Assembly (NCBI GenBank): GCA_038400315.1
Contig: CP151667.1
Span: 558,001-622,000 of the forward strand
Source of the DNA: Isosphaeraceae bacterium EP7
GTDB lineage: Bacteria; Planctomycetota; Planctomycetia; Isosphaerales; Isosphaeraceae
DNA length: 64,000 nt
Direction: 5' to 3'
Part shown: piece after piece, positions 27,388 to 31,398 of the stretch
Layout of the letters: every line of letters begins with the position of its first letter
How positions within the stretch are numbered: position 1 is the first letter of the stretch
Notes under the pieces: model-generated
The model's database searches: none
Told to the model about the DNA's origin: nothing
What the model saw: only the letters and a program-made list of their open reading frames with translations
Position numbers and translations under genes: made by a program

Positions 27388-27426
27388 CGTCAGGCGTTGG
27401 AAAATTGCCCCTGCGCCAGGAATGTT

Positions 27427-27457
27427 GGGAAGCTTGGAACTCCCAGGCTTCCCATTT
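27427..27457 (+). terminator. Intrinsic terminator after the Tyr-rich gene
   Basis: GGGAAGCTTGG at 27427-27437 pairs with 27443-27453 (11 bp, one T-G wobble), with a 5-base loop. ATTTCTCCC and an A/T-rich stretch follow. It starts about 40 bases after the stop at 27387 and insulates rpsA from upstream transcription. Confidence 0.65.
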
Positions 27458-27533: not shown

Positions 27534-27561
27534 TTGTCAGGACGGTTGAAGGTTCTATAAT
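27534..27561 (+). promoter_or_regulatory. Strong sigma70 promoter of rpsA
   Basis: TTGTCA (27534-27539) and a perfect TATAAT (27556-27561) are 16 bases apart. The expected start near 27568 leaves a 240-base leader before the S1 start codon at 27811. Strength and position fit a housekeeping ribosomal-protein gene. Confidence 0.75.
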
Positions 27562-27576
27562 CGTTGATTGCGTCAA

Positions 27577-27613
27577 GTCGACTTCGAGCGTGGCGAAGTC
27601 GACCGATTTTCTT
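27577..27613 (+). promoter_or_regulatory. Terminator-like hairpin at the 5' end of the rpsA leader
   Basis: GTCGACTTCG at 27577-27586 pairs perfectly with CGAAGTCGAC at 27594-27603, with a 7-base loop. It is followed by CGATTTTCTTTCC. It lies only about 10 bases past the predicted transcription start. It could be an attenuator, an RNA-stability element or the end of a very short RNA. Structure is seen; function is inferred. Confidence 0.55.
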
Positions 27614-27810
27614 TCCGAGTCCCCAAGGCCGGGGATGACGACCGATCCGGTTCGTCCACGTCACGGGTCGGTCGATGCGCGAATGATGCACGAGACGCCG
27701 GGACCGAGGGGCGACGCCCCGAGGGACCGACTCGTCGCGCGATCATCTTATTGCCGGCCGCCCCAGGGTGCGCGAGCCCAGGGGATGGATGGAAACCGAA
27801 CCCAACTCCT

Positions 27811-29907
27811 ATGGTCGATCGTAACCTCCTCCGTGAATTCGACGTCACCGACGAAGAGCTCGACGCGTTAGGTGCCGGGGCTGATGACGGCGGCGAATTC
27901 GAGCGTGTGCTCGGCGAAGCCCAGGCCTTCAACATCAATAGCATCGTGACCGGCAAGGTCATCGAGGTTGTCGGCGACCAGGTCGTCGTCGACATCGGCT
28001 ACAAGTCCGAAGGCTTGGTCCCGCTCAACGAGTGGGAAGATGAGCCCCCGCCCGTCCCGGGCGACTCCGTCGAGGTGCTCCTCGAGGGCACCGACGACGA
28101 CACCGGCGAGATCGTCCTGTCCCGCAAGAAGGCCCACAGGATGCGGGCCTGGGAGATGGTGATCTCCAAGTACCACGAAGGCGACGTGGTCAGTGGAAGG
28201 GTCACCCGGAAGATCAAGGGCGGCCTGCTCGTCGACATCGGCGTCAACGTCTTCCTGCCCGCCAGCCAGGTCGACATCCGACGCCCGTCGGACATCGCCG
28301 ACTATATCGATCAAGAAATCCAGTGCATGATCCTGAAGATCGACGAGGGCCGACGCAACATCGTCGTCTCGCGTCGTAAGCTCATCGAGATCACCCGCGA
28401 GCAGCAGAAGAAGCAGCTGCTCGCCGAGATCTCGCCGGGCCAGGTCCGCAAGGGCGTCGTCAAGAACATCGCCGACTTCGGCGCGTTCGTCGACCTCGGC
28501 GGTATCGACGGCCTGCTGCACATCACCGACATGTCGTGGGGCCGCATCAACCACCCCAGCGACATGGTCAAGATCGACGAGCACATCGAAGTCATGGTGC
28601 TGCACGTCGACAAGGACCGCGAGAAGATCGCGCTCGGCCTGAAGCAGAAATCGGCCAGCCCCTGGGAAAACGTCGCCGAGAAGTACCCGGTCGGTACCCG
28701 GGTCATCGGCGAAGTCGTCAACGTCATGAGCTATGGTGCCTTCGTCAAGCTCGAAGAGGGGATCGAGGGCCTCGTCCACATCTCAGAAATGAGCTGGACG
28801 AAGCGCATCAATCATCCCAGCGAGTTGGTCCAGATCGGCGACAAGATCGAAGTCGTCGTCCTCGGCATCAACAAAGAGAAGCAAGAAATCTCGCTGGGCA
28901 TGAAGCAGACGCAGGCCAACCCCTGGGATCAGGTCGCCGGCAAGTACCCGCCGGGCACCATGATCGAAGGCACGGTCCGCAACCTGACCAACTACGGCGC
29001 GTTCATCGAGATCGAAGAGGGCATCGATGGCCTTCTGCACATCTCCGACATGAGCTGGACGCGCAAGATCGGCCACCCCAACGAGGTGCTCGAGAAGGGC
29101 CAGAAGATCCGCTGCCAGGTCCTCAACGTGGACCAGGAACGCAAGCGAATTGCGCTCGGCCTCAAGCAGCTCAAAGATGACCCGTGGGAGACCGACATCC
29201 CGGGCCGCTACGGCCCCGGCGACGTCGTCAACGGCAAGGTCACCAAGCTCACCAACTTCGGCGTCTTCGTCGAGCTGGAACCGGGCCTGGAAGGACTCCT
29301 GCACATCTCGGAGCTGGCCGACCACAAGGTCGACAGCCCCGAAGAAGTGGTCAACGTCGGCGACGATATCGAGGTGAAAATCCTCAGGGTCGACCGCGCC
29401 GAACGCAAGATCGGCCTGTCTCGCAAGAAGGCCCAGTGGGTCAAGGGCGACGACGAAGAGGGCGAAGAGCCCGTGGAAGGTGCCGCGCCCAGCGGTGCCG
29501 GAGCCGCGGCGAAGGCCGAGGCGGCGAAGGCCGAAGCCCAGGGCCTCAAGGGCGGGCTCGGCGGCGGCGGACTCCTCTTCTCGATGGGGGGAGCCCCCTC
29601 CAGCACCGATGAGGAGACCGAAGGTCAAGGCGAGGAACTCTCGGACGCGGACAGCACGCCCGCCGACGAAGACCAGGCCGAGACCACCGAGACGGACTCG
29701 ACCGAAGCACCGGAAGCGGTCGCCGCGGACGAAGCCGTTGTCGCCGAAGAGGTCTCGGAAGAGGCCCCTTCCCACGAGGCCCCTTCCCACGAGGCCCCTT
29801 CCTACGAGGCTCCGAAAGCGACGGCCTCGGAGGAAGCTCCGGAAGACGTCACCTCCGACGATGAAGAAGCAGAAGAAAAGGCCAAGGCGGAAGCCGAACA
29901 GGCCTGA
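27811..29907 (+). CDS. rpsA: 30S ribosomal protein S1
   Basis: A 698-residue protein. Six S1 RNA-binding domains lie at about 44-107, 124-188, 212-279, 297-366, 383-453 and 470-540. Domains 3-6 carry the YGAFV/GLLHIS-type core. S1 helps the 30S subunit bind and unfold mRNA leaders. After residue 545 comes an acidic Ala/Glu-rich tail of about 150 residues with a short EAPSH repeat, longer than the tail of most S1 proteins. ATG 27811 is chosen because the family N-terminus begins there. The 20 bases before it show no Shine-Dalgarno, as is common for rpsA, which is often autoregulated. Flanked by its own promoter, leader and terminator candidates. Confidence 0.95.
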   Translation: MVDRNLLREFDVTDEELDALGAGADDGGEFERVLGEAQAFNINSIVTGKVIEVVGDQVVVDIGYKSEGLVPLNEWEDEPPPVPGDSVEVLLEGTDDDTGEIVLSRKKAHRMRAWEMVISKYHEGDVVSGRVTRKIKGGLLVDIGVNVFLPASQVDIRRPSDIADYIDQEIQCMILKIDEGRRNIVVSRRKLIEITREQQKKQLLAEISPGQVRKGVVKNIADFGAFVDLGGIDGLLHITDMSWGRINHPSDMVKIDEHIEVMVLHVDKDREKIALGLKQKSASPWENVAEKYPVGTRVIGEVVNVMSYGAFVKLEEGIEGLVHISEMSWTKRINHPSELVQIGDKIEVVVLGINKEKQEISLGMKQTQANPWDQVAGKYPPGTMIEGTVRNLTNYGAFIEIEEGIDGLLHISDMSWTRKIGHPNEVLEKGQKIRCQVLNVDQERKRIALGLKQLKDDPWETDIPGRYGPGDVVNGKVTKLTNFGVFVELEPGLEGLLHISELADHKVDSPEEVVNVGDDIEVKILRVDRAERKIGLSRKKAQWVKGDDEEGEEPVEGAAPSGAGAAAKAEAAKAEAQGLKGGLGGGGLLFSMGGAPSSTDEETEGQGEELSDADSTPADEDQAETTETDSTEAPEAVAADEAVVAEEVSEEAPSHEAPSHEAPSYEAPKATASEEAPEDVTSDDEEAEEKAKAEAEQA

Positions 29908-30561: not shown

Positions 30562-31398
30562 ATGGCCCGGATTCGCCGATACCGCCGTGATACGGTGCAG
30601 AGCCCCCTGGAGACCTACCTCCGGGAGATCAACGAGGTGGCCCTGCTGACCGCCGACGAGGAGAAGATGCTCGCCCATCGGATCGCCGCCGGCGACAATG
30701 CCGCCCGCGAGCGGATGGTCCGGGCCAATCTCAGGCTGGTCGTCAACATCGCCCGAGGCTATGTCGGCAAGGGCCTGGCACTCCAGGACCTGATCGAGGA
30801 GGGGAACCTCGGACTGCTCCGCGCCGTCGAGGGCTTCGACCCCGCCGTCGGCACTCGGTTCAGCACCTACGCCAGCTACTGGATTAAGCAATCCATCAAG
30901 CGGGCGCTGGTCAACACGGCCAAGCCGATCCGAATCCCGGCCTACATGGTCGAGTTGCTCTGCAAGTGGCGGCGGATGGCGTCCGACCTGCAGGAGTCCT
31001 TCGGCAGGCCGGCGACCTTCGAGGAGATCGGCAAGGCCCTGGAGCTTCCCAAGAAGAAGCTGGCCATCGTTAAGAAGGCCATCAAGGTCTACAATCTCGT
31101 CCCCCAGACCGATCAGCCCGAGAATGGCTGGAGCCTGGGCGAGATGCTCATGGACGAGCGCACCAAAGCCCCCGACGTCGAGATGGTCGAGGCGGATAAC
31201 CTCAGGCTCGTCCTGCACCGGCTCGACGAGATGGACAAGCGCGAGGCCACGGTTCTCCGGATGCGGTTCGGCCTCAACGACATCCCGCCGAAGACCCTCA
31301 AGGAGATCGGCGAGTCGCTCGGCCTGACACGCGAACGCGTCCGCCAGATCGAGAACGAGGCCCTGGGCAAGCTCTCGGCCGTCTTTGCGAACGACTGA
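30562..31398 (+). CDS. RNA polymerase sigma-70 factor, RpoD/RpoS-like (group 1/2)
   Basis: A 278-residue sigma-70 protein. Region 1.2 (PLETYLREINEVALLT) is followed by region 2 with the -10 binding segment (GLLRAVEGFDPAVGTRFSTYASYWIKQSIKRAL). Region 3 comes next, then region 4 with the -35 helix-turn-helix (TLKEIGESLGLTRERVRQIENEALGKL). There is no long region 1.1, so this is a compact primary-like or stationary-phase sigma, not the full-length RpoD. Cytoplasmic, binds core RNA polymerase. Downstream of rpsA but separated by a 650-base gap and terminators, so separately transcribed. A strong hairpin follows. Confidence 0.95.
   Translation: MARIRRYRRDTVQSPLETYLREINEVALLTADEEKMLAHRIAAGDNAARERMVRANLRLVVNIARGYVGKGLALQDLIEEGNLGLLRAVEGFDPAVGTRFSTYASYWIKQSIKRALVNTAKPIRIPAYMVELLCKWRRMASDLQESFGRPATFEEIGKALELPKKKLAIVKKAIKVYNLVPQTDQPENGWSLGEMLMDERTKAPDVEMVEADNLRLVLHRLDEMDKREATVLRMRFGLNDIPPKTLKEIGESLGLTRERVRQIENEALGKLSAVFAND

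Follow-up and report, generated by a model that had tools for sequence, protein, structure and literature searches.

What controls rpsA, the gene of ribosomal protein bS1, in Isosphaeraceae bacterium EP7, and what part is played by a hairpin that lies directly behind its promoter? We analyzed a stretch of 64,000 nt, hereafter the window (GCA_038400315.1, contig CP151667.1, positions 558,001 to 622,000 of the forward strand). Comparison with the leaders of related genomes points to the hairpin at the start of the rpsA mRNA as what appears to be a previously undescribed control element. The locus presents the following features:

27534 to 27539, forward strand: -35 hexamer TTGTCA, a sequence match
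27556 to 27561, forward strand: -10 hexamer TATAAT, a sequence match
27568 to 27573, forward strand: TTGCGT, where the transcript is expected to begin (predicted start site)
27577 to 27603, forward strand: 5'-proximal hairpin with a perfect 10-bp stem (arms 27577-27586 and 27594-27603), covarying in relatives
27587 to 27593, forward strand: loop AGCGTGG, with the conserved core GCGUG at 27588-27592
27607 to 27614, forward strand: T-rich tail TTTTCTTT, terminator-like, starting three bases after the stem
27781 to 27810, forward strand: stretch before the start codon, with no Shine-Dalgarno-like 4-mer in its last 18 bases
27811 to 29907, forward strand: rpsA, encoding bS1 (698 aa, six S1 domains)

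The rpsA promoter is exceptional within its genome. The near-consensus sequence TTGTCA-N16-TATAAT that the original prediction had placed upstream of rpsA is present at 27534-27561, where it matches 11 of the 12 consensus bases. It is the sole promoter-like site between 26500 and 28500 (0.3 in shuffled sequences), and the pattern TTGWCA-N16-18-TATAAT was found at three sites in the 7.2-Mb genome, against none for the reversed pattern used as a control. The promoter of gapA in the same genome (G000:C1:3576474-3576503, L198) precedes a very stable hairpin, which is absent from the relatives, and a third TTGWCA-TATAAT site (G000:C1:4331595-4331622, L199) is followed by a long hairpin and then by an ORF whose product resembles, by eye, a protein combining a helix-turn-helix with a response regulator. 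An inverted repeat (TGGGAAGCTTGG / CCAGGCTTCCCA, 27426-27454) lies between the rpsA promoter and the ORF upstream of it, and is possibly the terminator of that upstream gene. Downstream of rpsA, the ORF at 30562-31398 resembles a sigma-70-type factor, as judged by eye.

The start codon at 27811 is backed by the protein start MVDRNL, which is conserved in relatives, and a leader of about 243 nt follows if transcription starts near 27568. A long leader devoid of a Shine-Dalgarno sequence had been proposed, and this description holds: over these roughly 243 bases, none of the 4-mers AGGA, GGAG and GAGG was found 4-18 bases before the ATG in the window, and they are absent from 39 of the 40 family leaders. 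The 16S rRNA keeps CCTCCTTT although the leaders do without such a 4-mer. The missing Shine-Dalgarno sequence is not special, because genes with this signal are ordinarily few in planctomycetes: an excerpt of PMC5397173 names Planctomycetes among the phyla that include species with small fractions of such genes, with one planctomycete tabulated. Near the ATG, the folds of single sequences vary from one family member to another. We also considered an upstream in-frame start of rpsA, since the ORF of the window is open from 27568, and rejected it; the frame is open from the -10 hexamer to the ATG in 18/38 leaders, as could also be the case for a non-coding GC-rich leader. As second codon, rpsA has GTA in 30 of the 40 family leaders (ATGGTAGATCG), which is odd for GC-rich genomes, and GTC in the window (27811-27821).

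The perfect 10-bp hairpin announced near the expected start was recovered at 27577-27603, with the T-rich tail beginning at 27607. The first 49 nt of the expected transcript fold with -16.3 kcal/mol (z -1.84, 7 of 200 shuffles being as good), and the longer segment 27568-27840 shows no unusual stability (z -0.92). Taken alone, the hairpin and the promoter constitute modest evidence for a control element; the sequence evidence becomes strong once relatives are compared. A 10-mer common to the hairpin and the 16S rRNA was spotted by eye. A pseudoknot between the GCGUG loop and downstream CCACG-like sequences was rejected, as total complementarity was at chance (212 vs 209.3, p 0.3, 39 rows, with wrong loop letters used by the script in some rows, e.g., L011); by eye, this pairing had seemed convincing in the window, G001 and G031.

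One of the tests set beforehand for the hairpin was whether relatives share its stem, and the outcome was in favor of the original prediction. We located the N-terminal part of rpsA in 38 of the 45 family genomes, and two additional rpsA-2 copies brought the set to 40 leaders; only these two rows were left out of the tests on 38 rows. A promoter-proximal stem, defined as a stem score of at least 7 within the first 56 bases past the -10 hexamer, was found in 32 of 38 rpsA leaders against 3.1 expected from dinucleotide shuffles, the -10-like hexamers in relatives having been chosen by eye, a choice that may favor hairpins. The arms of the stem vary between genera, and GCGUG or a near variant of it is preserved in the loop. 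The stem is thus conserved, it covaries as detailed below and it carries a conserved loop, which supports a cis-acting element of rpsA. The family members that deviate from the hairpin pattern are G013, G024 and the rpsA-2 copies of G009 and G026. These second rpsA-like copies (G009:C4:2181322, L039, and G026:C1:3108582, L040) have leaders without the conserved hairpin. At the expected 5' end, TTGCG or ATGCG occurs 5-7 bases past the -10 hexamer in 15 of 38 family leaders against 0.39 expected from shuffles, an excess that shared ancestry inflates. This (U/A)UGCG repeats the core of the hairpin loop, and its pairing with the rest of the leader was not above chance.

Covariation of the stem was evaluated on two alignments. 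Alignment A1 comprised 29 of the 40 family leaders (28 of them distinct), L031-L040 and L070 having been dropped by eye for poor alignment or as rpsA-2 copies. Its 10-pair stem presented a covariation score of 0.348 against 0.196 in shuffled alignments, with 0 of 500 shuffles reaching as high, and 35 cells were changed on both sides against 16.3; a model-fitted alignment of 30 rows, one of which is a chance match inside a locus, yielded a score of 0.394 against 0.205 and 39 such cells against 15.7, all relative to shuffles that ignore the relatedness of the rows. In both alignments, the true register outscored every slide of up to 3 columns. Compensation was also seen within genera, for instance between L014 and L022 (g15) or L009 and L020 (g18). 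Counted as pairs in which both sides had changed, the signal was not clearly above the shuffles, with 8 vs 6.4 in A1 (89/500) and 8 vs 5.8 in the fitted alignment (22/500). The conserved structure is backed by covariation, as is found in ribosomal leaders; counting against this, the consensus fold of RNAalifold had 0 pairs for the MAFFT alignment and 4 for the model-fitted one, we think because rows with shifted arms break the consensus.

A covariance model of the element singled out rpsA among the candidates scored. In its own genome, the rpsA leader scored 43.3 bits and the next match 17 bits (E 4.5), among the 150 candidates scored out of 2846 at first look. Across the family, all 24 matches of at least 28 bits were rpsA leaders, such that the element sits consistently upstream of a ribosomal-protein gene, and the best other match reached 27.3 bits. 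A wider regulon was rejected, these other family matches of at most 27.3 bits being near chance for 45 genomes. The family search missed divergent leaders (g6, g8, g21 and rpsA-2) and, under stricter filters, G002 and G034; leaders such as G002 had been found in an earlier model search. The rpsA leader of G010 was new to the model, because the gene is cut by a contig end in this genome, and it has the same sequence pattern as the others; its recovery, with the rpsA ATG 204 bases past the start of the match, is the closest thing to an independent test that these sequences afford.

Outside the family, the signal is only suggestive. In searches of 294 genomes, matches outside the family reached at most 30 bits, and nine that were fetched carry no rpsA. 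Among 90 rpsA loci outside the family, eight matches with E up to 10 were obtained, four on the plus strand within the leader (E 1.6-6.6) and four on the minus strand; these E-values are rough, because the best minus-strand match (E 0.0004) sits inside a gene. None of these outside-family searches returned an rpsA leader at a convincing score. GCGTG was found in the loops of 94 outside leaders 12 times against 3.5 expected, ranking third among pentamers, with others rising as much. By eye, a hairpin after a -10-like site presents GCGUG in G049, G092, G098, G077 and G051, and GCAUG in G053. Rfam 15 returned 0 matches for the window at curated (gathering) thresholds and, for seven loci searched at E up to 1, one weak match below the cut-off in L016.

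The explanation that we favor, with a probability of about 0.45, is that a ribosomal-leader-like RNA controls rpsA through a factor that binds the loop, most plausibly bS1, in combination with attenuation in the lineages that carry a T-run. The covarying hairpin with its GCGUG loop, often preceded by (U/A)UGCG, would act in cis as RNA at the 5' end of the rpsA mRNA. A trans-acting factor would read the loop and adjust rpsA expression in the fashion of ribosomal leaders, the direction of this control being something that we infer rather than observe. The candidate factor, bS1, has six RNA-binding domains, is autoregulated in gamma-proteobacteria and is encoded directly behind the leader. As the reader of the loop it is a tentative candidate, with the odds leaning somewhat against it: bS1 prefers single strands, which counts against its reading a hairpin loop, and we know of no preference of bS1 for GCGUG, which counts against it likewise. 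In lineages with a T-run, including the organism of the window, binding could alter the stopping of the polymerase about 45 bases past the start; for this organism in particular, we regard attenuation as possible and somewhat on the doubtful side. In the lineages without a T-run, control would fall on translation or decay.

The strongest rival is a plain stabilizer of the 5' end, in which the hairpin, unread by any specific factor, would protect the rpsA mRNA against decay that depends on the 5' end. We consider this unlikely, although part of the evidence speaks for it. About 10 bases at most separate the hairpin from the expected 5' end, and it persists where the T-run is absent. In addition, of 17 promoter-like sites in the genome of the window, 7 present marked structure in the first 50 bases, compared with 1-3 at other offsets; some of the 17 may not be promoters, since the reversed pattern yields 9 sites. 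Part of the rpsA signal could accordingly reflect a general habit of 5' ends. However, this explanation leaves both the conserved loop and the recurring (U/A)UGCG at the 5' end unaccounted for, and a loop that is kept while the arms change is something that a mere stabilizer would not need. It is also at odds with gapA, for which a near-consensus TTGACA-N16-18-(TATAAT-like) promoter was identified by strict pattern in 18 of the 30 family loci fetched (L216-L245). A promoter-proximal stem followed only 1 of these 18 promoters (1.2 expected), against 32 of 38 in rpsA, which indicates that the hairpin is not a by-product of strong promoters in this family. Among stems scoring at least 6, the loop contained CGYG, GCGY or CGUA in 28 of 35 cases for rpsA and in 1 of 5 for gapA. 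We had considered gapA as a second case of the element and rejected it, as the promoter recurs across the family and the hairpin does not.

A promoter-proximal intrinsic terminator or attenuator, releasing an RNA of 40-50 nt from the start of rpsA, is less probable again. At least five T were found in the eight bases past the stem in 20 of 40 rows, or about half of the leaders, a count in which L037 and L038 rest on a different hairpin chosen by the finder and the visible T-runs of L005 and L011 were missed. The T-run is strongest in g7 and g15, and the tail of the window fits a terminator pattern. The T-run of the window is, however, displaced three bases from the stem and not that of an ideal terminator, and the RNA ahead of the hairpin is too short for a classical antiterminator. 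Whereas an intrinsic terminator is a stem followed by a conserved T-run, the T-run here is missing in g6, g9, g14 and g18. In a bS1 tree built from 31 family proteins and four outgroups, g14 and g18 form a clade (support 97/96) with no T-run, having 0-4 T in any eight bases, whereas most of its neighbors in g7 and g15 carry one. Nonetheless, the hairpin and loop are retained in five of the six members of this clade, G013 having diverged. The tree as labeled, including the error on L005 and L011, needs at least six changes of the T-run, so both gains and losses are possible. Since the hairpin is kept without the T-run, it seems to have a job independent of termination. The proposal of attenuation or of a short released RNA is thus possible where a T-run follows the stem and fails as the whole function, because about half of the leaders do without a T-run, as does a well-supported clade in which hairpin and loop are kept.

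We give a marginally lower probability still to a two-site sensor confined to the first 45 bases, in which one factor, bS1 or a different RNA-binding protein, would grip both the 5' (U/A)UGCG and the GCGUG loop before RNA polymerase has moved far from the promoter, and choose between release of a 45-nt RNA and the full mRNA. Both copies of the motif may bind the same factor. If this were true, it would constitute a ribosomal leader acting during or just after promoter escape, whose RNA-binding part persists as genera acquire and lose the termination arm.

A DNA operator, with the inverted repeat just past the start site binding a transcription factor, appears very improbable: the arms are perfectly palindromic and lie at a near-fixed distance from the -10 hexamer, but they change with compensation between and within genera, and an operator would keep its arms rather than its loop. 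A chance structure in a GC-rich genome, to which the folding z of only -0.92 for 27568-27840 would be congenial, is hardly credible in view of the stem counts, the covariation and the held-out match in G010.

Searches of the literature, with subscription journals mostly outside it, turned up no description of a 5' hairpin element of rpsA. The table of 20 new leaders in Eckert and Weinberg 2020 (PMC7247131), the part of that paper considered, contains no S1 leader and no planctomycete lineage. An excerpt of PMC2864571 lists the planctomycete motif Rhodopirellula-1 without mention of 'rpsA', and an excerpt of PMC11109978, which reports 30 ribosomal leader candidates, contains none of the planctomycete names looked for. 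Autoregulation by bS1 has been described for gamma-proteobacteria. If the ribosomal-leader-like reading is true, the element would be a second, different-looking and covarying rpsA leader, in a phylum with few Shine-Dalgarno genes, and it would show how a main protein of initiation without Shine-Dalgarno sequences is controlled in planctomycetes. The hairpin is a compact RNA of 27 nt with a defined loop, which can be used to seek its binding factor.

Among known systems, the closest in gene identity is the rpsA leader of gamma-proteobacteria, where bS1 represses its own mRNA; judging from an excerpt of PMC10931766, the two share the gene, a structured leader and the lack of a canonical Shine-Dalgarno sequence. 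In those bacteria, the translation initiation region itself forms the structure, which acts together with AU-rich single strands, whereas here the conserved hairpin occupies the 5' end, with 207 bases between it and the ATG, so that we speak of a likeness rather than of an established homology. As in ribosomal leaders generally, in the terms of an excerpt of Eckert and Weinberg 2020 (PMC7247131), the 5' UTR of a ribosomal-protein gene consistently carries a covarying structure; unlike in these leaders, the ligand here is a putative one. The stem and the T-rich stretch behind it in about half of the leaders resemble an intrinsic terminator or attenuator, but the T-run is not conserved, no alternative antiterminator was seen in the leader and only some 10-15 bases of RNA precede the hairpin. 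Finally, hairpins of the ompA type at the 5' end stabilize mRNA. The rpsA hairpin resembles them in lying very near the expected 5' end, and differs from them in its conserved loop sequence and its association with one gene.
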